Source of the DNA: an uncultured Lachnospiraceae bacterium | GTDB taxonomy: Bacteria > Bacillota > Clostridia > Lachnospirales > Lachnospiraceae | Assembly: GCA_900316855.1 (NCBI GenBank) | Contig: ONEK01000005.1 | Span: forward strand, 1 to 64,000 | Reading direction: 5' to 3' | Length of the DNA: 64,000 nt | Part shown: piece by piece, positions 6,236 to 56,650 of the stretch | How the letters are laid out: each line of letters starts with the position of its first letter | How positions within the stretch are numbered: position 1 is the stretch's first letter | Notes under the pieces: generated by a model | The model's input: only the letters and a program-made list of their open reading frames with translations | What the model was told of the DNA's origin: nothing | Database searches by the model: none | Made by a program: the position numbers and the translations under genes

Positions 6236-6412
6236 TTATTTGAACTTTCTCTTACGGGCAGCCTCAGACTTTAATTTGCGTCTTACGCTGGGCTTCTCGT
6301 AATGCTCTCTCTTGCGGATTTCTTCCTGAATGCCAGCCTTCTGATAAGCTCTCTTAAACCGGCGCAGGGCGCTATCCAGAGTCTCATTGTCCTTTACAAC
6401 AACACTTGCCAT
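6236..6412 (-). CDS. rpsU: 30S ribosomal protein S21
   Basis: This 58-residue basic protein of the small ribosomal subunit has the complete family pattern: [16 protein letters not shown] at the N-terminus, [12 protein letters not shown] in the middle and a Lys/Arg-rich end. The ATG at 6412 is preceded by GGGAGGG at about eight bases. The upstream in-frame extension has no such site and is not part of S21. Strong stem-loop terminator downstream. It is a single-gene unit here; it is not next to dnaG or gatB/yqeY genes as in some genomes. Confidence 0.97.
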
Positions 6413-9440: not shown

Positions 9441-11771
9441 CTATGACTCGGGGGTAGTGGACAGCGTATTTTGCCAGCTCTGCACGGTGCTCCGCATGCC
9501 GTCCAGGTCCAGCACGCCGCACGCGAAGCCCTTCTTCACCAGCTCATCCGGCAGGTATTCGTCATATTTGTCGAAGACAGGAAGCTCCTTCGGGAACAGC
9601 AGGGTCATCGGATCGATCGGTTTCGCGGCCTCTTCCGCTGCCACCTGATAAAACGTCTCCTCATCGGCCTGCATCGTGAACTGCATATAGAACGGCCTTG
9701 CGCTGTCAAAGGCACGGATGCCGAGCCTGCTGCCGCATTTGATCCGGAGGAACCGCTCCAGAGCGTAGAATGTATAGGTTCCCACCCAGGGAACCAGGCA
9801 CCACATCCTGCCGCCGAGGTTGATGAGCGGCTTTTTCGTCACGCCGCAATAGCGTGCGGTTTCGCGGGCCAGTGAGAGCCTTGCGGCAGCGTTCTGCATG
9901 AGATAGGGGTAGGGCCGGTCCTCATCCAGGACGCCCCGCATCCGCTGCAGAACCTTCGTATGCAGGTCCCCGGGGCACTCGCCGAAATAGGCAGGCACCT
10001 TGCCGCGGATCATCTCGCAGTAGACAAGGTGCCGCCTGTGATCAATATCCAGAACGCGCCAGACATGGCCGGCGATGGCAATTTTCTCGCCGATGGGCGG
10101 CGGCGAGACGATCGTTCCGAGCTCCTCGGAATCGCTGCGCACCGTATATTCCTCGTTCTCCTGAAAAACACCGTAGAACCTGGAGGAGTTGACCACCCTC
10201 TCCCCCTTTACGCCGACAATAATACCGCCCTCGGGCGTCTGCTCGATGTGGTCCTCCTGCACCAGGTGCCGGAGCAGAAGCCGGAAATCCTCCTGGCTCA
10301 CGCGGTGGAAGAAATGGAGCTTCAGGACATGATCCGCCAGCGCGGAGGGCGACATTTCGCCGCCGGATGCGAGCGTGCTCATGGTCTGGTGATACAGAAG
10401 ACTGTAGGGAAGCCTGTCAAGGCGCGGAGGCTCCACAAAGCGCTCCTCAACATACAGCTGTACCAGCGCGATGCCCTGCAGCAGCTTCCAGGGAATCGTT
10501 TCCGGAAGCATGGCGCGCGCCTCCGGCTCATCCTCGCGCATCACAAACCACATCTCCGGGGGATTCCCCCGCCTTCCCGTGCGGCCCATTCGCTGCAGGA
10601 ACGAGCTGACCGTCCACGGCGCGTCAATCTGGAAGGCACGCTCAAGCCTTCCGATATCAATCCCGAGCTCCAGTGTCGAGGTTGTGACCGTCGTAAGGCT
10701 CCTGCTGTCGTCCTTCATCAGGGCTTCCGCCGTCTGGCGGTACGCAGCGGACAGATTGCCGTGATGAATCAGGAAGCGGTCCGGCTCATGCATGTGTTCG
10801 CAGTAGCTCCGGAGTGTCGTGGTGACCGCCTCGCACTCCTCACGGGAGTTTACGAAGACAAGACACTTCTTCCCCCGTGTATGCTCGAAAATATAGGCAA
10901 GGCCCGGATCCGCGTGTGCCGGTGCCTGATCTGTTGCGCCATCCAGGACAGCAAGCGGCGCGTTTGCTGCTGTGTCCTCCTGCTCCGTCTCCGGGATGGC
11001 AGGCACGGCGTCCCCGTCCGGCAGAGCCGGTCCGGCAAGAGAATCAAGGGAGGGATCCGCCGCTTCTCCTCCCTTCACATAGAAGTGCTCCATGGAGATG
11101 CGCCATTTGGCGCCCTTCGCCTCCATCTGCGGGATGATTGTGGTCCTTCCGGTTCCGAATGAGAGGAATTCACCGGTTGCCTCCGGATCGCCCATGGTCG
11201 CGGACAGACCGATCCTGCGCGGGTTACAGTCTGCGAGCCGGCTCAGCCGCTCGATCAGGCACAGAGTCTGACCGCCCCGGTCTCCGCGCAGCAGCGAGTG
11301 GACCTCGTCAATCACAACAAAGCGGAGGTCGTGAAACAGCTTCGGAATTGCGGAATGCTTGTGCAGCAGCAGCGCTTCCAGCGATTCCGGCGTGATCTGC
11401 AGGATACCGGAAGGGTGCTTCATGAGCTTCTGCTTATGGCTCGCGGCGACGTCGCCGTGCCAGTGCCAGACCGGAATATCGGCTTCCGCGCAAAGGTCCG
11501 TCAGCCGGTCAAACTGGTCGTTGATCAGTGCCTTAAGGGGGCCGATATAGATGCAGCCGACCGACGCGGGCGGGTCCTCGGAAAACAGGGTAATAATCGG
11601 GAAAAAGGCTGCCTCCGTCTTGCCGGAGGCCGTGGACGCGGTCAGCAGCAGATTCTCGTCCGTATTGAAAATGACATCGGCCGCGGCAACCTGTACCGCG
11701 CGAAGGTCTTCCCAGTGATGTCTATAAATATAGTCCTGTACAAACGGGGCATACCGGTCGAAAGCGTTCAT
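9441..11771 (-). CDS. Lhr-like DEAD/DEAH helicase, Shango SngC-like
   Basis: This 776-residue superfamily 2 helicase has motif I TASTASGKTEAAFF, a DEVH box (VVIDEVHSLLRGDRGGQ) and motif III SATMGD. In its second RecA-like domain it has LVFVNSREE, TSTLELGIDIG and motif VI QRMGRTGRRG. A long C-terminal region follows. This is the arrangement of the Lhr/BrxHI-type helicases used in several phage-defence systems. Its ATG overlaps the stop of the upstream ATPase gene by four bases (ATGA), so translation is coupled. With the two upstream genes it forms the order TerB protein, ATPase, helicase that is published as Shango. Confidence 0.85.
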   Translation of the reverse strand: MNAFDRYAPFVQDYIYRHHWEDLRAVQVAAADVIFNTDENLLLTASTASGKTEAAFFPIITLFSEDPPASVGCIYIGPLKALINDQFDRLTDLCAEADIPVWHWHGDVAASHKQKLMKHPSGILQITPESLEALLLHKHSAIPKLFHDLRFVVIDEVHSLLRGDRGGQTLCLIERLSRLADCNPRRIGLSATMGDPEATGEFLSFGTGRTTIIPQMEAKGAKWRISMEHFYVKGGEAADPSLDSLAGPALPDGDAVPAIPETEQEDTAANAPLAVLDGATDQAPAHADPGLAYIFEHTRGKKCLVFVNSREECEAVTTTLRSYCEHMHEPDRFLIHHGNLSAAYRQTAEALMKDDSRSLTTVTTSTLELGIDIGRLERAFQIDAPWTVSSFLQRMGRTGRRGNPPEMWFVMREDEPEARAMLPETIPWKLLQGIALVQLYVEERFVEPPRLDRLPYSLLYHQTMSTLASGGEMSPSALADHVLKLHFFHRVSQEDFRLLLRHLVQEDHIEQTPEGGIIVGVKGERVVNSSRFYGVFQENEEYTVRSDSEELGTIVSPPPIGEKIAIAGHVWRVLDIDHRRHLVYCEMIRGKVPAYFGECPGDLHTKVLQRMRGVLDEDRPYPYLMQNAAARLSLARETARYCGVTKKPLINLGGRMWCLVPWVGTYTFYALERFLRIKCGSRLGIRAFDSARPFYMQFTMQADEETFYQVAAEEAAKPIDPMTLLFPKELPVFDKYDEYLPDELVKKGFACGVLDLDGMRSTVQSWQNTLSTTPES

Positions 11772-13087
11772 AGCGTAAACTCCGCAAATTCCTCCCCTGC
11801 CTCCTGAGATTCGACTTCCGTCTTCGCGTAGCTGAACTGGTCGGAACCAAGGAGCTGTGTCACCTTCAGATCGGGATTCTGGTAAATGATATCAAGAACC
11901 TCGATGTAGTCCCGGATGATTTCACGCGGCGTGATATGGGAGTCCGCGCCAACCCGGTCAAATTCAACCTGCAGGAACGCGATCCGGTCCTCCTGTGTCA
12001 GGATGGGCGCATACCCGTAGAGGACAGCGTGGATCCCGGTCAGCTTCTCGGTCAGGACAAGAAGCTCCTCCCGCGTGAGCGGCTGGAGCCGGATCATGGG
12101 GGAGAGGAGGTCCTTATACTCGCCGGAGGAGGTGAAGTGTCCCTCGGTCAGCCGGGAGCGCAGTGCCTCGTAGCTGAATACACCCCTTCGCGGATCCTCC
12201 ATGCACTGGGGTGTGCCGCAGAAGATCATTCCCAGATAATGCGAACGGCCCTGCATGGCATCGTTGTACATGGTGAGCATCTTCTCATAATTGTTCTGCC
12301 GTGTGATGGCATTCGGGATCTTATAAATATTGACAAGTTCGTCAACGAGGACCAGCATGCCGGCATAACCGGCCTGCTGCAGGAAGCCCGCGAAGATTTT
12401 CAGATAGTCGAACCAGTCCTCATCCGTGATGCACAGGTTGATGCCAAGGTCCTGTCTGGCTTCCGTCTTCGTATTGTATTCGCCGCGAAACCACCGTACG
12501 ACCTTTGCCTTCGTCTCATCGTCAGCGTCCATACAGGCGTGGTAATACAGTGTCAGGAGGCGGGCAAAATCATAGCCGTGCACCAGCTCGTTGAGCGAGA
12601 GCACAACCTTCGCGATCCGACGCTGTGTCGCGGCGGGAAGTCCGGGGTCTCCTACGGGAAGTCCTGTCTCCTCCATCGCCTGCTGCTGCAGGGAGCTGAT
12701 CCATCGGTCGAGGATGAGGGTGAGGGCACCTCCCTCCGGACGGGTTTTTGTCGCCATGTTGCGCACAAGCTCCCGGTAGGTTGCAAGGCCCTGCCCGTGC
12801 GTGCCCGCAAGCCTCCGCTCGGGGGAGAGATCCGCATCCACTACGACGAAATTTTTCGCCATGACATAATTGCGGATCGTCTGCAGCAGGAAGCTCTTGC
12901 CGCTCCCGTAGTTGCCCACGATGAAACGGAACGAGGCGCCTCCGTCCGCCACAATGTCCACATCATGCAGCAGGGCGTCGATCTCATTTTTGCGTCCGAC
13001 CGCAATATAGGGGAGCCCGGTGCGCGGAACGACGCCGCCCTTCAGGGAATTGATCAGTGACTGTGCAATTCGCTTTGGTATATTCAT
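11768..13087 (-). CDS. BrxD-like ATP-binding protein (DUF2791), Shango SngB-like
   Basis: This 439-residue P-loop ATPase has Walker A GNYGSGKSFLLQ near residues 56-67 and Walker B MLVLVDELVNIYK near 255. A sensor region (YLGMIFCGTPQCMED) and the PMIRLQPLTREELL segment typical of BrxD/DUF2791 ATPases follow. It most likely powers or regulates the helicase encoded by the next gene, with which it overlaps by four bases. The upstream TerB-type gene ends 69 bases before it. No BREX methylase, PglZ or Lon gene is near, so this is a stand-alone module and not BREX. Confidence 0.85.
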   Translation of the reverse strand: MNIPKRIAQSLINSLKGGVVPRTGLPYIAVGRKNEIDALLHDVDIVADGGASFRFIVGNYGSGKSFLLQTIRNYVMAKNFVVVDADLSPERRLAGTHGQGLATYRELVRNMATKTRPEGGALTLILDRWISSLQQQAMEETGLPVGDPGLPAATQRRIAKVVLSLNELVHGYDFARLLTLYYHACMDADDETKAKVVRWFRGEYNTKTEARQDLGINLCITDEDWFDYLKIFAGFLQQAGYAGMLVLVDELVNIYKIPNAITRQNNYEKMLTMYNDAMQGRSHYLGMIFCGTPQCMEDPRRGVFSYEALRSRLTEGHFTSSGEYKDLLSPMIRLQPLTREELLVLTEKLTGIHAVLYGYAPILTQEDRIAFLQVEFDRVGADSHITPREIIRDYIEVLDIIYQNPDLKVTQLLGSDQFSYAKTEVESQEAGEEFAEFTL

Positions 13088-13156
13088 ATGATTCCTTTGC
13101 CGGAGCCGCAGGTCATTCTTTTTACGGGATCGCCGCGCTGCTTCACGGTTCCCGGG

Positions 13157-14809
13157 CTACTGCAGCAATGTACGCAGCTCCTGTGCGTAATCCTCTATGA
13201 CGCCGTCTTCGTCGAGGACGATATCGCCGAAATGATCATACAGCTTCTCATTGATCCCGTCCGCGAGGATGGAGGGCAGGAGGCCCTGTTCCCGCAGCCA
13301 CGACAGATCCAGATGATCCAGGAGGCAGTGCAGATAGTGCCGTTCGTCCTCCGAGAGCGGCGTTGAAGCTGCGTCAGACTCCGGAGCCGCTCTGTCCGGG
13401 CTGTTGGATTCCGGACCTAGATCCGACGTGTCGAAACTCCCGTTCGGGACTCCGGGGGATTCCACAAGAGCGTTCGCAAGGGTTCTTCCCTCCTGCCGGG
13501 CCGTCGGGAGCTCGTCCTGCGGCGGTCCCGCCGTTTCACCAGGCTGCGGGTCCGGAGCTGCCGGACGTACCGGTTCGTCCCGCTCCTCGTCCGTCATGAG
13601 GCGGCCCATGGTATAGTCGGCATCCGTGCGGATCCTGGACAGGGAGGACAGATCCGGGTGAAATTCGCGGTGCTTCCTCCTTAGCAGCTCCTGCTGCCAG
13701 GCGTCGGCCCGCAAAGAGATCAGCTCGTCCAGCCATCGCGGAACTGTACCGTCCTCCACCTTTAGCGGATGCGGATCATGAAAGATGCTGCGAAGCCTCG
13801 CGTCAATTGTGTGGAGGAGTGTCCCCAGACGGTTCCTGCGGACGCCCGCCGTGTCGAAATAGTTCCGGGTCCAGACTCCGTTCCGGCAATGATACTGACA
13901 CAGCTCATCCACGGTGTAGTCCAGGGTGCGGTCCCGCAGCCGGTCATAGAATACCGCGGCATAAAACAGCAGGGCCTGTGCATGTGCCGGCGCGCCGAAG
14001 TAGTCCTCCGTCCATGTGCGTTTTGTGTGCTTCCTGTAATGTTCCTCCACGCCCTTAAGTACACCGGCGAGCACAAAGGCAAACAGGTCCCTGTTCTGCC
14101 GCACGAAGACGGAGCGTTCTATCGTGGTGCCCGAAAGGCCGCAGACAGCCTCGAAAATCTCTTCATCGGTGTGCTCCGTCAGATGCAGGAGCGTCCACAG
14201 CGCATGATCCGTCACAGCCTCCCTCCTGCCAGCCAGCAGGGAGGGATCCATCTGATAATAGATGATATAGTCCCTGGTCCAGAGATCAAGATAGCTGCAG
14301 ATCCGGGGGTCGAGGGTGCCGTAGTCCCTCCGGAAGGACATCAGCTTCTGATAGCCGTCTTCGGTATCACTGCAGCCGAGCTGATTCAGCAGCTCGTAGA
14401 TGTAGAGGTAGGCATAGGAGAGTGATGTCTTCTCCTGCGTTCCCTGCCGCCAGCGGCTCCGCCATCCGAGGTAGCCGCGAAGCTCCGCGTTGCTTAAGGC
14501 ACGGTAGGTCGGATAGTAATGCCGCACCTCGCCGGAATAGCGGTAGTCATCCGTACAGTCCTCCAGGAGCTTTCCCTCCTCGTAAAACTGCTCCTCCGGG
14601 GACCGGGACCAGGCCTGTTCGCTGCGCTCATAGTCGCGCGCCCTCCGGATTGCGTCCGGAAGGGACGTATCGTCCGGCACGGGCAGGTCCGCAGGCCGGG
14701 ACTGCCCGCCGAACGGCAGGCGCTCACTGTGATAGATTTTCTGCCGATAACGAAGATCCGACCTTGTAAAATGTGGCACTGGTTTCTCCTGCAAATCACG
14801 GGATTTCAT
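13157..14809 (-). CDS. TerB N/C-domain protein, Shango SngA-like
   Basis: This protein of about 550 residues has the TerB_N signature YPTYRALSNAELRGYLGWRS and TSLSYAYLYIYELLNQLG, a long helical middle, an acidic Pro-rich linker near residues 415-490 and a C-terminal helical domain that would fit TerB_C. It probably senses or links the membrane or phage signal to the ATPase and helicase; that role is inferred. I prefer the ATG at 14809 (GGAAG upstream), but an ATG at 14860 is also possible. It is the first gene of the three-gene operon. A perfect 24-bp palindrome lies just upstream. Confidence 0.8.
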   Translation of the reverse strand: MKSRDLQEKPVPHFTRSDLRYRQKIYHSERLPFGGQSRPADLPVPDDTSLPDAIRRARDYERSEQAWSRSPEEQFYEEGKLLEDCTDDYRYSGEVRHYYPTYRALSNAELRGYLGWRSRWRQGTQEKTSLSYAYLYIYELLNQLGCSDTEDGYQKLMSFRRDYGTLDPRICSYLDLWTRDYIIYYQMDPSLLAGRREAVTDHALWTLLHLTEHTDEEIFEAVCGLSGTTIERSVFVRQNRDLFAFVLAGVLKGVEEHYRKHTKRTWTEDYFGAPAHAQALLFYAAVFYDRLRDRTLDYTVDELCQYHCRNGVWTRNYFDTAGVRRNRLGTLLHTIDARLRSIFHDPHPLKVEDGTVPRWLDELISLRADAWQQELLRRKHREFHPDLSSLSRIRTDADYTMGRLMTDEERDEPVRPAAPDPQPGETAGPPQDELPTARQEGRTLANALVESPGVPNGSFDTSDLGPESNSPDRAAPESDAASTPLSEDERHYLHCLLDHLDLSWLREQGLLPSILADGINEKLYDHFGDIVLDEDGVIEDYAQELRTLLQ

Positions 14810-21665: not shown

Positions 21666-21680
21666 TAACCATCTCGGTCA
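21666..21680. promoter_or_regulatory. TGACC-type inverted repeat at the rep stop codon
   Basis: TAACC-ATCTC-GGTCA has the same one-mismatch form as the hypF site at 17933-17947 read on the opposite strand. It contains the rep stop codon and lies just ahead of the AbiEi-like start. Confidence 0.45.
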
Positions 21681-22937
21681 AGAGTTTATTAATCTCGACT
21701 CCAGATCATCAAAATCATACTGATTCTGCTGGAAGTTGTTGAACTCATTCCTGCTCCGGATCCTGGCGGATTTCTTTCCGGCAGAATTCTGTCCCGCCCC
21801 GGAATGTGCGGCTGGAACATCCGCAGAATCAGATGCCGCAGCGGATGAACCGGCTTTTCCGGAAGGTTTATAGTCGCCGCGGATGGCAGCAATCAGCCAG
21901 CCGGTCATGTTGTCAACATTCTTCGCAACGCACCCCAGCTCATAGGCGGATCTGAGCTTGTCCTCATTATATTCCGCAGCATCGCACACCGCCTTGATAT
22001 CGATGAGAGACAGTCCCAGCTTCATGAACATTCCGCTCACCCGGGAAATAACCGCAAATTTCTCGTCCGTCATTTCCCTGGACGAAGTATCAATTACCCT
22101 TTCTCCGGATTTATTCTGCTCCTGGGAATCTCTTCCGGAACCTTCCTGTCTCGTCAGAATAAATTTCAGTGCCGTCACCTTGGCGCCGCGCCCTGTACGG
22201 ATCGGTTCATACTCCATATGAACGGTCGAAATGGCATTCAGCTCTTTCTGAGCCTTATCCAGAACACCTCTGCGGAAATGCGTATAATCCGGAAACATTT
22301 CCTTCTTCCTGGTTTTGCGCGCCGAGCCCGTATCGACTGCCGGATTCAGCAGGCCAAGAAGCTGTTTGAAATCATCATACTGATAGGTCATGTAGTAGGG
22401 ACCCGGATTTTTCGTCACTGCCCTCTCCCTGTCCATGAAAGCCTTGAAGATTTCATAAAGCCGGATGGAATAGGGGGACTGCAGATCAATAGTAGTCTGC
22501 AGCGACAGTCTTGCATAATTGTCCCGCAGACCGTAGATATCATTTTCAATTTTGCGGTTGAATGTCAGGGAAAGCTCGCCGTTCTCGAATTTCGCGTCAT
22601 TGACAACGTTGATGCCTTCGATTTTTTCGGTTTCATCGTTCTGTATATAGATTCGCCAGTCCAGGATGGAAGGCTTTGCCTCATCCTCCGGCTTGATCAG
22701 ATCCTTGATCTGTGTATAGAACGAACCGTTATTGTTGCCGAACAGCTTGCGCAGCTGAGTGCCGGAAACGGTCGCTGTAATGGTCCCGTCCTTATTCTTT
22801 CTGGCTTCACGGATTCCGACGGCGAACAGTTTCAATCCCAATGCGGTGGATTTTCCTTTCGCGTTGATGATCCGGTTTGATTTGGAATAGGTTGACAGCT
22901 CAAATTCTTCACTGCCTGTCTGTTTGTTTCTGGCCAT
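21678..22937 (-). CDS. Rep_3-family plasmid replication initiator (RepB/RepA-like)
   Basis: This 419-residue protein has the double winged-helix layout of iteron-binding initiators: SNRIINAKGKSTALGLKLFAVG, a central FNRKIENDIYGLRDNYARLSL and the signature SPYSIRLYEIFK, then DYTHFRRGVLDKAQKELNAIS. A variable linker rich in Ser and Ala and a basic tail follow. It would open the origin by binding the iterons at 23090-23877 right upstream of the gene. The ATG at 22937 follows GGGAG at a slightly long distance. Such initiators serve plasmids, megaplasmids and chromids and are not the chromosomal DnaA type. Confidence 0.9.
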   Translation of the reverse strand: MARNKQTGSEEFELSTYSKSNRIINAKGKSTALGLKLFAVGIREARKNKDGTITATVSGTQLRKLFGNNNGSFYTQIKDLIKPEDEAKPSILDWRIYIQNDETEKIEGINVVNDAKFENGELSLTFNRKIENDIYGLRDNYARLSLQTTIDLQSPYSIRLYEIFKAFMDRERAVTKNPGPYYMTYQYDDFKQLLGLLNPAVDTGSARKTRKKEMFPDYTHFRRGVLDKAQKELNAISTVHMEYEPIRTGRGAKVTALKFILTRQEGSGRDSQEQNKSGERVIDTSSREMTDEKFAVISRVSGMFMKLGLSLIDIKAVCDAAEYNEDKLRSAYELGCVAKNVDNMTGWLIAAIRGDYKPSGKAGSSAAASDSADVPAAHSGAGQNSAGKKSARIRSRNEFNNFQQNQYDFDDLESRLINS

Positions 22938-22964
22938 TCTGGCGTCTCCCGAACTTACCTCTCA

Positions 22965-23022
22965 TGCCTGCGTCAGCAGGCACCCGACCGGGTTATGAAA
23001 GTTTCGCATCGGCGAAACTTTC
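22965..23022. promoter_or_regulatory. Two perfect hairpins in the rep leader
   Basis: TGCCTGC (22965-22971) pairs with GCAGGCA (22976-22982). GAAAGTTTCGC (22997-23007) pairs with GCGAAACTTTC (23012-23022) around a four-base loop. They lie 28-85 bases upstream of the rep start and could regulate rep translation or termination, or bind Rep dimers. Confidence 0.55.
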
Positions 23023-23089
23023 TGACTTGCTGACTTGTGCAAGCAACCCGTACCGAAATACTATATGGTGTATTCCGGATTGTAATGAA

Positions 23090-23877
23090 TTCCAATTTCC
23101 GGCAGAGCTTTGAATGTATCTTCCACTTTTTCGCAGATCTTCTGCCACACGACCCATTATACATGAATTCCAAAATGTCGCAACTCTATCTTCCAGTTTT
23201 TGGCAGAACTATATTTTCAGTTTCTCCCGTCCGTTCCGGATTCAGGCACACCTTTGTTCCATATTCAGGCAGATCTTTTTAATACTTCGATTACTGTCCC
23301 TCTCCTTTCATTGATGTTCATTTATCCTTGTTCTGCAGCTGTATCAAAGCGATGGCTGTTCCGGCGTTATTCCGATCACAGGCAGAGCTTCATTCCAACT
23401 TCGGGCAGTTCTTTGACAGAACCTTCCATTTTGCGGCAGATCTTTATTCCGGAAACAGGTGCTTCTTAATTGGCATTCCTCATTTTTTTCGCTTGATTCA
23501 GGCGCTTCGGCCGATGCTTTCCTTTGGAAATCTCTGCCGCGCTTCGTTCCGATTTCAGGCAGGTCTTTGTTCCAGATTAAGGCTGCTCTTCATTTGTTTC
23601 AATCGGATTTCATTCCAATTTTGAACCTTTCCTGTTCCATTTTCCGGCAGCTCTTCCGCCTTATTTCTGATTTTCTTCCTCCCGGATCCGGAATCCGGTT
23701 ACAGGCAGTGCTGCTTCCACAGATCGGCAGATCTTGCTCCATTGCGGGGAGTGATTTGCAAAAGAGCTGCGCGGAACTGGAATCTTTTCGTTCCAGTTTC
23801 CGGCAGCTCTTATTCCTTTCTCAGGTTTCAATTGTTCCAATTCCCGGCAGGGCCTGTTCCAGTTTGAAGCTGTTCTT
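23090..23877. repeat. Iteron array, candidate replication origin
   Basis: About 20 copies of a 21-bp repeat with core TTCC-N7-GGCAG-N-TCTT fill this gene-free space between rep and the partition genes. Clear copies start at 23090, 23121, 23168, 23191, 23234, 23257, 23370, 23393, 23424, 23447, 23547, 23570, 23635, 23715, 23791, 23835 and 23857; weaker ones are near 23613, 23692 and 23814. Many lie in pairs exactly 22-23 bp apart, about two helical turns, which suits cooperative Rep binding. Iterons beside a Rep_3 gene are the hallmark of an origin. Confidence 0.88.
23762..23811. repeat. Head-to-head inverted iteron pair
   Basis: One iteron on the minus strand (23762-23782) faces one on the plus strand (23791-23811) across eight bases, forming a large inverted repeat with arms that differ at only a few positions. 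In other iteron plasmids inverted iterons serve as the operator where Rep dimers repress transcription. Confidence 0.7.
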
Positions 23878-23973
23878 TCCGGTCCTTGACAGCGCAAACC
23901 CCTGTATATAAGGCATTTACGAATTTTCTAAACAATAAAAATTATGTTTTGTCAATAATTTATAACGTTGCTG

Positions 23974-24456
23974 TTACTGACGCATCAGAATTGTGAGTTT
24001 CTTATAAGCCTGAAAAGCCTCCTGATACTTGACATAATCATTGTCTATGAGACTGGTGATATATTTTGTCATAGTCATTTTCTTGGAGCGGGCCATAAAT
24101 TCGAGAAATTCCTTCTTATCAGGATCATGAAGGTCCAGCAGGATGGTTGTTTGCGCTCTCTCCCGCTTGGATACAGCTTTTACCGGATCCTCAGGCTTTT
24201 CATTCGTCTTTAGAAGCGGGTCTTTATGATCTGGTAAACTATTTAATTGGTGGACTGCATCTGTATTTCCAGCGTAGGTCTGCCCGGTTTCGGAAGAAGA
24301 GCTGCCGGAAACTGGAACATTATGCGGCGCATTCTCTTCTGCCTTTACATTCTCAACAAATTCGGTAACAAGAGAGACCTCTGCATTCTGTTCTTCTTCC
24401 TTCTTCTTTTCGTTCTGCAGCCTCATCATGGCCAGCTTTTCTCTTTTCGATGCCAT
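23974..24456 (-). CDS. Small ParB/RHH-like partition partner of ParA
   Basis: This 160-residue protein has a charged N-terminus, a low-complexity Ser/Glu-rich middle and a C-terminal part (RAQTTILLDLHDPDKKEFLEFMARSKKMTMTKYITSLID) that reads like a ribbon-helix-helix DNA-binding fold. Its ATG shares one base with the ParA stop (TAATG), as in type Ib plasmid partition operons, where a small RHH ParB/ParG-type protein binds the centromere. It is followed directly by the iteron array. An iteron-like sequence lies inside its coding region at 24297-24317. Confidence 0.75.
   Translation of the reverse strand: MASKREKLAMMRLQNEKKKEEEQNAEVSLVTEFVENVKAEENAPHNVPVSGSSSSETGQTYAGNTDAVHQLNSLPDHKDPLLKTNEKPEDPVKAVSKRERAQTTILLDLHDPDKKEFLEFMARSKKMTMTKYITSLIDNDYVKYQEAFQAYKKLTILMRQ
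24297..24317 (-). repeat. Iteron-like copy inside the small partition gene
   Basis: On the minus strand this 21-bp stretch matches the 23791 iteron at essentially every base (TTCC-AGTTTCC-GGCAG-CTCTT). It encodes the VSGSSSS part of the protein. Rep bound here could repress the par operon or connect it to the origin. Confidence 0.65.
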
Positions 24457-25217
24457 TATTTGGTCCTCTCTATTATTTCCTTTACAATTCTGCGATAATC
24501 CATCGCCGGATTGGAATATTTGTCGTACTGCTGAAGGGATTCGCGTGCCGTCTTGGCTTCGGATACCGTAATTGCCTTCCTTACCTTATCGATAAAGGGC
24601 TTTTCTTCTATATTATTCTGCAGCTGCTCGATCCGGTCCCAGGCATCCGCGTGCATATTGGTTTTTTCGTATGCGGTGAGGATAATTCCCAATATTCTTG
24701 CATGGGAGATCGTGTGTCTTGCAGATCGCATCTCCTGCAGATCGTTATATACCTCCTCAACACCATCTGTTCCGCCGTCATCACAGCTGCAGGGAACAAC
24801 AATATAATCGGAAGCTACATAGCTCATGGTAAGCAGTGTTGATCTTGAGGGGCCATTATCGATCAGCACGAAATCATATTTGTCCCTGACGGATTCCAAA
24901 ACGTCACTCAGCAGAAAGACGTCGTCATATTCTATAAATGTCTTGTCTGATTTGGACAATGCCTTTGAGCCGCATATGAAATCATATCCGTCAACATGCT
25001 TGATGGCATCTTCTACCGGAATATCAGCGTTCAGCACCCGGAAGATGTTGTTATCCGAGGTCTTATCTTCACCAAGATATGTAGTGAAATTCGCCTGAGA
25101 GTCGAAATCTATAGCAAGAACCCTATAGCCGTCTTCGGCCAGGATGTGAGCTATTTCGATTACCGTGGTTGTCTTACCGACACCACCCTTTTGATTTACG
25201 ATTGCAATAACTACCAT
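24456..25217 (-). CDS. parA: ParA-family partition ATPase
   Basis: This 253-residue Walker-type ATPase distributes plasmid copies to daughter cells. The deviant Walker A loop KGGVGKTTT (residues 10-18), the DFDSQANFT motif, and DFVLIDNGPSRS and VPCSCDD-type switch segments are all present. It lacks an N-terminal HTH, so control of its own promoter probably falls to the small partner. The ATG at 25217 follows AGGAG by five bases; an ATG six codons earlier is less well placed. It heads a two-gene operon read towards the iterons; the upstream AT-rich tract would hold its promoter and possibly the centromere. Confidence 0.95.
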   Translation of the reverse strand: MVVIAIVNQKGGVGKTTTVIEIAHILAEDGYRVLAIDFDSQANFTTYLGEDKTSDNNIFRVLNADIPVEDAIKHVDGYDFICGSKALSKSDKTFIEYDDVFLLSDVLESVRDKYDFVLIDNGPSRSTLLTMSYVASDYIVVPCSCDDGGTDGVEEVYNDLQEMRSARHTISHARILGIILTAYEKTNMHADAWDRIEQLQNNIEEKPFIDKVRKAITVSEAKTARESLQQYDKYSNPAMDYRRIVKEIIERTK

Positions 25218-25656
25218 ACACGCTCCTGATTGCATTTATTGACTTACAGTGTTTATATTAATATATAGTAATATAAATATCAAGGTATATATTACTGAAA
25301 TATTTATAGATATATTAAGCTATATCATCATAGACATATTTACATATATATTAATATATAACACTATAAATATATGAATATACAACTGAAACTAATCAAA
25401 CCATATTAATCTATCAGTATAGACATATATATTTAATGAAATATATTCATAATGACATATATCAAATCAGTAATAATATATATAGTAATATGTATATACA
25501 TAATACTATATATACATATATGAGAATATATAAATATAATTATAAATGGATATAATTATTACACTATAGATAATGAATGATATTATAGACAAATATAAAG
25601 AGATACATATATACAACAAGTTAAAACATAGACATTTAAATAAATATAAATATAGA
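25218..25656. promoter_or_regulatory. Extremely AT-rich tract with repeated TAGACATAT-like words
   Basis: Nearly all of these about 440 bases are A or T in a TATATA-type texture, in sharp contrast to the GC-rich neighbours. Words of the form ATAGACATAT occur near 25330 and 25420, with variants near 25586 and 25629. The tract lies between parA and a larger ParB-like gene. It could be the duplex-unwinding part of the origin, the centromere, or both. An open plus-strand frame at 25573-25848 is not a convincing gene. Confidence 0.7.
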
Positions 25657-26826
25657 TTAACTAGACTTATATATAGTATAAAGCGATTGGAGAATGATTT
25701 TCATGCAAGACTGATTCAAGGCCTTCTGTCCCTGCGTAAAATTCATGTGAGACAGGACATAAAGCCTGAATGCAGCGTCACGAAGGATAGAATCCGATAT
25801 TACGAATCCGTTGTGTGCAGCTACATAAAATACATCTTTGGGGTCTGATGCGGTTTCAGAGCGGCGGTTCATTTCAGCCTGGAAAAGCTGAGTCCATCGT
25901 GTATAATTGCTGTCATCTTCATATGACTCCATAAGTGAGATAAACCCGGAAAGGGCAGGATCAGTATTAGCTGACTTGTGAATTGCATCAGCGGAAATCG
26001 TAAAATTCCTGTCAGTCATCTCAGTCATCACGGATGAATCAGAAGCAGGAATATCTGTTAGAGTTTCATCAGAAAGGGAAATAGATTCATGGCCTGACTG
26101 ACTGTCTGTGTTATCGACATCAGCTTTAGCCATCTGAACAAGCTGATCCAGGTCGCCGGCAGGGATTACAATATTGCCGTGGTGCATGTCATAATCAAAT
26201 AACAGCTGCTCCAGGATATTCCATGCATTCTGATTTAAGCTTTTCACCGGAAGCAGACGCGTATAGGGAAACTGTTTCTCATTGCAGCGAAGCTGAATGG
26301 ATACCGGCATTTTCTGTATGGAAAAATACCGGGAAACCGCGGAAGGAGATATATTCAGCTGCCCGGCAATCCATTCACGCCTGCCGCCCATAGAGACCAT
26401 ATATTTCTCTTTAATTACGGTAAATATATTTGTCAATGTGTCTATATGTCTAGAATATACAAGAGGCGATAATTTGCTGTAGGATGCATTAAGACGTATA
26501 GAGATCAGGTGCTGGATGACGGGATCATCCCCCCTCCGAAGCGTGAACTTCATCTGATCAACCTTTAACTGTCTGGCGGCAAGGAAGGGAAGAAAAGGGC
26601 CGAGCAGTGAATACTCGGATCCATTCTTTTCAATAACCAGATTCTGGAGCTGCCCGAAGCGCTCGTACTTCAAAACTTCGTCATGTATATCCCGATCCGG
26701 TTGAAATGAATAATCCTTGAACAGTGAGGAATGGATCGTGATATCATGAATGGAAAGTGTTTCTTCGCCGAGGTTCCTCGCCAATATGGCATCAAGATTC
26801 CAGCGCCTGGTACCGGCAGCAAGCAT
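25657..26826 (-). CDS. ParB-like DNA-binding protein of the plasmid region
   Basis: This protein of 389 residues begins with TRRWNLDAILARNLGEETLSI and a ParB/Srx-like part. Near residues 164-183 it has a helix-turn-helix REWIAGQLNISPSAVSRYFS like the KorB/ParB DNA-binding unit. The C-terminal half is divergent and its last codons lie in the AT-rich tract. The ATG at 26826 has AGGAG eight bases upstream; the frame is open further back without a site. It may be the centromere-binding protein, a second partition system, or a plasmid regulator; the function is inferred from the fold and location. Confidence 0.65.
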   Translation of the reverse strand: MLAAGTRRWNLDAILARNLGEETLSIHDITIHSSLFKDYSFQPDRDIHDEVLKYERFGQLQNLVIEKNGSEYSLLGPFLPFLAARQLKVDQMKFTLRRGDDPVIQHLISIRLNASYSKLSPLVYSRHIDTLTNIFTVIKEKYMVSMGGRREWIAGQLNISPSAVSRYFSIQKMPVSIQLRCNEKQFPYTRLLPVKSLNQNAWNILEQLLFDYDMHHGNIVIPAGDLDQLVQMAKADVDNTDSQSGHESISLSDETLTDIPASDSSVMTEMTDRNFTISADAIHKSANTDPALSGFISLMESYEDDSNYTRWTQLFQAEMNRRSETASDPKDVFYVAAHNGFVISDSILRDAAFRLYVLSHMNFTQGQKALNQSCMKIILQSLYTIYKSS

Positions 26827-55267: not shown

Positions 55268-56650
55268 ATGCCAGCATTAAACAGCAGGGAGGAAAATGTT
55301 TATTCCCTCATCACACCGGAAATCCGGGCGGATGCGGAACAGGCAAAGCTGTCTGACCAGATCGATCCGCAGCTGTACATCGATTACAACGTAAAGCGGG
55401 GCCTTCGCGACGTCAACGGCAAAGGCGTCCTGGCAGGCCTGACGAACATTGCGGAAATCAGGGCAAGGAAGGTCGAAAACGGAGAGGAGGTGTCCGACGA
55501 CGGACGCCTGTATTACCGCGGCTATGAAATCCATGACCTGATCCGCGGCCTGAAGGAGGATCAGAGATTCGGCTTCGAGGAGACGGCCTACCTCCTGCTG
55601 TTCGGGAACCTGCCGACAAGGGATCAGCTGGACCGGTTCTCGAACCAGCTGCTGTTCTACCGGAGTCTTCCCAAGAATTTCGTGCGCGACGTCATCATGA
55701 AGGCGCCGGGCACCGACATGATGAACATCCTGATGAGGAGCGTCCTGACGCTCTACCCCTATGATGACCACGCGTCGGATATCTCGCTGCCCAACGTGCT
55801 GCGCCAGAGCATGCAGCTCATCAGCCTGTTCCCGATGCTCTCGATTTACGGCTACCAGGCGTTCCGGCATTATGAGGAAAATGACTCGCTCATCATCCAC
55901 AACCCGCTGGACCACGGCAGCATCGCGGAGAATATCCTCCACCTCCTCCGGCCGGACGGGAAGTACAACGACCTGGAAGCGAAGGCACTGGATATGGCCC
56001 TGATCCTGCACATGGATCACGGCGGAGGCAACAACTCCGCCTTCACGATGCATGTCGTGACCTCGACGCACACGGACACCTACTCGGCAGTTGCGGCCTC
56101 GCTGGCATCCCTCAAGGGCCCCCGTCACGGCGGAGCCAACATCAAGGTTGTCCAGATGTTTGACGACCTGGAGGTCAATGTGCGCGACTGGACGGACGAG
56201 GAGGAGATTGCAGACTACCTGAAAAAGCTCCTCGCCGGCGAGGCCTTTGACCACAAGGGCCTGATCTACGGCGTCGGTCACGCCGTTTATTCGAAGTCAG
56301 ATCCGCGTGCCGAGATCTTCCGCGGCTATGTACAGAAGCTCGCGGAATTCGAGGGAAGGCAGCAGGAATATGCCTTGTACGAGCGCGTGGCGCGTCTTGC
56401 TCCGAAGGTGATTGCGGAACAAAGACGCATGTACAAGGGCGTCTGTGTAAACGTCGACTTCTTCTCGGGCTTTGCCTATTCCATGCTGGGGCTGCCGAGG
56501 GAGCTGTTCACTCCGCTTTTCGCCATGGCGCGCATTGTCGGCTGGAGCGCCCACCGCATGGAGGAGCTTGCCAACAACGGCAAGATCATCCGCCCGGCCT
56601 ACAAGTCGATCGCGCCGCTGCGCGCGTATGTGCCGATCGACCGCCGGTAA
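55268..56650 (+). CDS. gltA: Citrate synthase
   Basis: This 460-residue enzyme condenses acetyl-CoA and oxaloacetate. The N-terminal extension and YYRGYEIHDLI segment match bacterial citrate synthase. The catalytic region is complete: MDHGGGNNSAFTMHVVTSTH, LKGPRHGGANIKV, GVGHAVYSKSDPR and VNVDFFSGFAYSMLGLP with the catalytic Asp. In anaerobes it feeds glutamate synthesis through the oxidative half of the cycle. It has its own promoter and terminator; aconitase and isocitrate dehydrogenase genes are not nearby. GGAGGGCCCTC precedes the ATG. Confidence 0.96.
   Translation: MPALNSREENVYSLITPEIRADAEQAKLSDQIDPQLYIDYNVKRGLRDVNGKGVLAGLTNIAEIRARKVENGEEVSDDGRLYYRGYEIHDLIRGLKEDQRFGFEETAYLLLFGNLPTRDQLDRFSNQLLFYRSLPKNFVRDVIMKAPGTDMMNILMRSVLTLYPYDDHASDISLPNVLRQSMQLISLFPMLSIYGYQAFRHYEENDSLIIHNPLDHGSIAENILHLLRPDGKYNDLEAKALDMALILHMDHGGGNNSAFTMHVVTSTHTDTYSAVAASLASLKGPRHGGANIKVVQMFDDLEVNVRDWTDEEEIADYLKKLLAGEAFDHKGLIYGVGHAVYSKSDPRAEIFRGYVQKLAEFEGRQQEYALYERVARLAPKVIAEQRRMYKGVCVNVDFFSGFAYSMLGLPRELFTPLFAMARIVGWSAHRMEELANNGKIIRPAYKSIAPLRAYVPIDRR

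Follow-up and report, generated by a model that had tools for sequence, protein, structure and literature searches.

A replication and partition module in contig C16

The window analysed here is the 64,000-nucleotide stretch formed by bases 1-64000 of contig C16 (134,162 base pairs, bp), from the draft genome of an uncultured Lachnospiraceae bacterium (labelled G000; 2.69 Mb, 44 contigs, 99.9% complete). A first reading of the sequence only had proposed an iteron-type replication and partition region at 21678-26826, and all of its main parts were located there. Read along the minus strand as transcribed, they are arranged as the gene for a 389-amino-acid (aa) protein, an AT-rich gap, parA, the gene for a 160-aa protein, the iteron region and rep. 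The features of the module are as follows.

21678-22937, minus strand: Rep_3-family replication initiator, 419 aa, with winged-helix domains WH1 and WH2 (Pfam PF01051/PF21205).
22997-23022, unstranded: inverted repeat of 26 bp with 11-bp arms, 60 bp upstream of the rep start (palindrome scan).
23088-23882, minus strand: iteron array, 14 strong direct copies and 2 weak ones (weight-matrix scan).
23974-24456, minus strand: small ParA partner, 160 aa, weakly similar to small proteins of plasmids pCY360 and pCY186, and over its C-terminal ~40 aa only.
24292-24319, plus strand: single strong iteron in opposite orientation, within the gene for the 160-aa protein (weight-matrix score 32.7, the contig maximum).
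24456-25217, minus strand: ParA partition ATPase, 253 aa (PF13614 AAA_31, E 9e-43); the open reading frame may start at 25235.
25218-25656, unstranded: AT-rich tract upstream of parA, 439 bp, 82.7% AT.
25657-26826, minus strand: divergent ParB-like DNA-binding protein, 389 aa (hhalign 93.7% to a ParB profile).

Both winged-helix domains of Rep were detected (Rep3_N, E 9.5e-19; Rep3_C, E 6.3e-9), and the protein gave a weak match to the solved structure of R6K pi (2nra, E 8e-4). Its best named matches all lie on complete circular plasmids: the Rep proteins of pCY186 (32% identity) and pCY360 (27%), with further matches on pNP243 of B. fibrisolvens (26%) and on a Roseburia plasmid (25%). The palindrome upstream of rep is a candidate operator for Rep autoregulation.

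The iteron search covered the 1036 bp between rep and the gene for the 160-aa protein (22938-23973). The iterons are direct repeats of ~22-23 bp with a consensus of about AAGAKCTGCCKGAAAMTGGAAC, several pairs of which lie 22-23 bp apart; an 18-mer was found in 13 copies at up to 5 mismatches, versus a maximum of 4 in shuffled sequence. The array thus stands as first described, while the estimate of about 20 copies was slightly too high, since 14 strong, 2 weak and 1 inverted copies were counted. It adjoins rep, as in Rep_3 iteron theta replicons, and is probably the replication origin, with Rep binding to the iterons and opening of the origin taken from the established biology of this family. 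One DnaA box at up to 1 mismatch was present in 2.8 kb, where 0.5 were expected. DnaA boxes are common but not universal at Rep_3 iteron origins, so that their scarcity is no bar to membership. The inverted, near-perfect iteron within the gene of the ParA partner could aid copy-number control or couple par expression to Rep.

ParA carries the deviant Walker motif KGGVGKT and is 41-42% identical to the ParA proteins of pCY360 and pCY186. Searches of the 160-aa protein against Pfam and family profiles gave no match, and AlphaFold run without alignments returned a low-confidence fold (pLDDT 57) that was not used; the protein may plausibly be a ribbon-helix-helix-like centromere binder. The AT-rich tract had been put at 440 bp, in agreement with the length found here. 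It holds the 400-bp windows with the highest AT content on the contig, and it is a candidate centromere and/or unwinding element. No Spo0J-type parS sites were found on C16. The larger protein had been proposed to be ParB-like. Its helix-turn-helix part gives the hhalign match to ParBs, though the protein is divergent: it shared 30% identity over 118 aa with the ParB of pCY186 in the helix-turn-helix region and weakly matched the Spo0J structure 6sdk (E 0.028), while Pfam gave no match and did not detect ParB_N. Relatives of this protein were found neither among 299 genomes of the family nor in the plasmid collection, and its AlphaFold model without alignments (pLDDT 32) was not used.

GC skew, gene orientation and a separate dnaA region

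A look for a switch of GC skew near 23.5 kb had been suggested as a check, and one is present at 24-26 kb. The skew changes there from about -0.10 to positive values, stays mostly positive to the end of the contig, and its cumulative curve has its minimum at 24-26 kb. Gene orientation changes as well. Left of 23.5 kb, 15 called genes lie on the minus strand and 3 on the plus strand (5840 versus 634 aa of coding sequence), and between 23.5 and 64 kb there are 22 plus-strand and 10 minus-strand genes (9039 versus 3365 aa). The two switches at the module look like those at an origin in use.

A search for a separate dnaA/oriC had also been suggested, and dnaA was found on a different contig (C41, 48913-50280), in synteny with the dnaA region of a relative (G028:C47). 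This region has its own skew switch, eight DnaA boxes, and Soj/Spo0J (ParAB) genes with parS sites. In relatives, two solitary Rep_3 loci without par genes (G020:C4, at 814 kb and 70 kb from dnaA, and G028:C46) showed no skew switch, and the skew minimum of G020 lies close to dnaA. It follows that a solitary Rep_3 gene is not enough to produce the skew pattern.

Continuous chromosomal synteny through the site in relatives, with the skew switching elsewhere, would speak against a plasmid-type origin; we looked for this arrangement and did not see it. Chromosomal synteny around C16 was seen for single genes or small operons only, while contigs C24 and C41 are syntenic with relatives. A dead integrated plasmid was rejected as the best reading because the skew and strand switch at the module and par genes are present, whereas par-less chromosomal Rep_3 loci show no switch.

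Core genes and composition of contig C16

The genes reported to flank the module, rpsU, hypF, citrate synthase and feoAB, were all recovered (rpsU by TIGR00030, the others by Pfam). Two of them are listed here.

6236-6412, minus strand: rpsU, ribosomal protein S21 (TIGR00030 S21p), the single match in its own genome.
55268-56650, plus strand: citrate synthase (PF00285), the sole copy found in the genome.

The view of the flanking genes as core-type held for these two sole copies, but not for FeoAB, which is an extra paralogue. We rejected FeoAB as core content; the orthologous, chromosomal FeoB lies on C32. An AmmeMemoRadiSam gene pair on C16 is chromosomal in relatives.

By published criteria, a chromid replicates and partitions with plasmid-type systems, resembles its host in composition, and bears core genes that other species keep on the chromosome (PMC12456017). 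On C16 the replication and partition genes are of plasmid type (Rep_3, iterons, ParA, ParB-like protein). Its GC content (0.51-0.57) is within the range of the other contigs, and the tetranucleotide correlation of its segments with the mean of the other contigs was 0.88-0.92, compared with 0.80-0.94 for those contigs themselves and 0.72-0.86 for stretches sampled from relatives. The sole rpsU of the genome lies on C16, and in relatives this gene belongs to a chromosomal scp cluster.

The rpsU gene was present in 12 of 12 genomes tested, and a recognisable match was found in 54 of 61 congeners, nearly all 77-86% identical to the C16 copy. Downstream of it lie a phosphoesterase gene and scp genes in all 8 relatives inspected, and glyS and alaS precede it in 6 of the 8 (gene names assigned from the sequences). 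The host retains this cluster on C24 as glyS, alaS, two other genes, the phosphoesterase gene and scpA. Where rpsU would be expected, alaS and the phosphoesterase gene are instead separated by an MBOAT-like 505-aa gene and a 436-aa gene (C24:8618-11745), and no trace of an rpsU remnant was found at the cluster. Therefore, rpsU was either moved to the C16 replicon or replaced by a copy there. Judged from its sequence, this replicon looks like a chromid that the cell cannot easily lose, and its loss would probably be harmful. In the literature covered by our search, no paper dealt with ribosomal protein genes carried by chromids of this family.

Most of C16 is taken up by genes for sugar transport, regulation and efflux, together with a Shango defence system. 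The Shango system is complete at 9441-14779 of the window (minus strand), with the SngC helicase, the SngB BrxD-like ATPase and the SngA TerB protein. C16 also holds a Clostridiales-1 RNA (RF01699; 65756-65923, minus strand) and, at 133941-133972, a repeat of ~28-32 bp that occurs at more than 30 sites genome-wide, on many contigs and often close to contig ends.

Rep_3 genes elsewhere in the host and its relatives

The host has a second module of rep, iterons, ParA and ParB (G000:C43:14266-18906), whose iteron differs (GGACAAATAAACAG) and at which the skew changes, and thus probably a third replicon. Rep_3 genes with their own iterons and no par genes seen nearby were located in relatives at G020:C4:813885-815117, G034:C171:5155-6359 and G028:C46:10924-12123, and more such loci at G020:C2:929339-930625 and G034:C99:3726-5060; at G030:C36:14063-15265; and at G046:C15 and G036:C83. 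Two groups of these par-less genes each occupy a shared chromosomal position in two or three species. Their pairwise ratio of nonsynonymous to synonymous substitution rates (dN/dS) was 0.05-0.26, indicating that they are kept under selection; the G034:C171 copy is split by a frameshift.

A DnaD-like tail in Rep

The C-terminal residues ~396-419 of Rep (NEFNNFQQNQYDFDDLESRLINS) match the end of the host DnaD (NSFNCFAQNRYDFSELEKQLLRN), with the motif FNxFxQNxYDFxxLE. This DnaD carries a DnaB_2 domain (E 5.9e-23), and its gene adjoins that of a DnaC/DnaI-type loader. Its tail is identical to that of the C43 Rep at 16 of 24 positions, and the match to the window Rep is similar. Among 735 called genes from a sampled part of the genome, the motif was restricted to DnaD, the window Rep and the C43 Rep. 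A recognisable version of the tail also closes most of the other Rep_3 proteins examined from Lachnospiraceae, and those of Priestia, Aureibacter and Acinetobacter are without the motif.

The DnaD tail of B. subtilis is known to bind single-stranded DNA and, through its end, to contact the co-loader DnaB (PMC10201434); the likeness here is that the window Rep ends in a tail common to the DnaD of its own host. This suggests that Rep may recruit the helicase-loading machinery as DnaD does. Given the near-absence of DnaA boxes, a direct route from Rep to the helicase loader would be an attractive, if speculative, possibility.

A phage-like replication protein in a Lachnospiraceae metagenome-assembled genome (L008:9180-10102) has the same DnaD-like tail, by a short match that was the sole one in the scan of genome contigs; the tail is therefore common beyond Rep_3 and DnaD. 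A scan of viral contigs found nothing.

Interpretation and alternatives

We consider it likely, with a probability of roughly 80%, that 21678-26826 serves a secondary replicon of plasmid descent, at least 134 kb in size, as its working origin and partition locus. In such a replicon, Rep would bind the iterons and open the origin, and the host replicative helicase would be brought in via the DnaD-like C-terminal tail. Forks would then leave both ways, which would explain why the skew switches and the genes point outward, while ParA, its small partner and the ParB-like protein would segregate the replicon, with the AT-rich tract upstream of parA probably acting as the centromere or part of it. 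With no rpsU left on the chromosome, the replicon would be hard to lose. Between the two origins offered by the sequence-only reading, a megaplasmid or chromid and an integrated plasmid, the evidence favours the former, and C16 is most likely part of a physically separate replicon, as suggested by the skew and the separate dnaA origin. Several points weigh against this reading. C16 is an open contig whose ends show no overlap with each other; the right end has a 99-bp repeat-type overlap with the small contig C3 only, and the left end matches nothing. The skew is still rising at the right end and no terminus lies within C16, so that the full replicon probably exceeds 134 kb. A search for transfer RNA (tRNA) and ribosomal RNA (rRNA) genes on C16 found none.

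The lack of rRNA and tRNA genes, together with the predominance of sugar transport, regulators, efflux and Shango, would also suit an ordinary dispensable megaplasmid on which rpsU and the other core-type genes are accidental cargo. We regard this as unlikely, given that the sole rpsU of a 99.9% complete genome is on C16, that the ancestral chromosomal site is without it, and that the composition of C16 equals that of the chromosome. It is similarly improbable that the plasmid was integrated into the main chromosome with its origin active now or until recently, giving a two-origin chromosome. In favour of such an arrangement, C16 carries rpsU, citrate synthase and the AmmeMemoRadiSam pair, all of them chromosomal in relatives, and Rep_3 genes of relatives do stand in chromosomal contexts (G020:C4, 70 kb from dnaA; G028:C46; G034:C171). 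However, unlike the C16 module, those genes lack neighbouring par genes, and the skew does not switch at the ones tested; the synteny around C16 is limited to single genes and small operons, while C24 and C41 keep theirs. Naturally two-origin bacterial chromosomes are also rare. A contaminating or misassembled contig could be suspected in a 44-contig draft in which C16 ends in a repeat-type 99-bp overlap, but its tetranucleotide pattern fits the host better than sampled relatives do and the genome without C16 would have no rpsU, which makes this explanation very improbable.

Beyond the separate replicon favoured here, a tentative and rather doubtful extension is that Rep_3 initiators took over the host DnaD tail and load the helicase without DnaA, perhaps also without DnaD, at an origin with almost no DnaA boxes, and that a plasmid-borne rpsU replaced the chromosomal one and locked the replicon in as a chromid.

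Few chromids have been described from this part of the Clostridia, and the replicon marked by this locus is likely to be another. A core gene appears to have been caught after transfer, with its old chromosomal site recognisable and its only copy on a plasmid-type replicon, and the rpsU case offers a concrete test of how plasmids become indispensable. The tail common to Rep and DnaD, in turn, provides a simple, testable idea for how large clostridial plasmids may recruit the host helicase.

Comparison with known replicons

The module belongs, as a divergent member, to a group of large-plasmid origins already known from Lachnospiraceae. In pCY360 of Butyrivibrio proteoclasticus (PMC2914790), an AT-rich stretch, ParA, a 167-aa protein, iterons and Rep follow in the same order as in the window, and pCY186 of the same species has a similar gene set of ParA, a 146-aa protein, ParB, iterons and Rep. 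The likenesses to both plasmids comprise a Rep_3 initiator with upstream iterons, ParA followed by a small protein with a related C-terminus, an AT-rich tract upstream of parA, and the Rep tail motif. The differences lie in the sequences, with Rep 27-32% and ParA 41-42% identical and a distinct iteron, and in the ParB-like gene, which in the window is very divergent and stands across the AT tract from parA. Moreover, pCY360 and pCY186 are described as carrying mostly genes of unknown kind and not core genes (PMC2914790).

The Rep_3 initiators R6K pi, RepE and RepM resemble the window Rep in their WH1 and WH2 domains and direct iterons. In contrast, the window Rep has a long C-terminal extension with the DnaD-like tail, and its origin has few DnaA boxes.

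At the level of the whole replicon, the chromids BPc2 (B. proteoclasticus) and pINBov266 (B. fibrisolvens) are like C16 in combining a composition close to that of the host with genes of chromosomal type on a secondary replicon (PMC2914790, PMC6249431). The Rep comparison covered collections to which BPc2 does not belong, and its Rep was left out. BPc2 has rRNA operons and tRNAs (PMC2914790), whereas C16 has none but holds the only rpsU of its genome. In pINBov266, as in C16, plasmid-type replication and partition genes lie at a GC-skew switch (PMC6249431).

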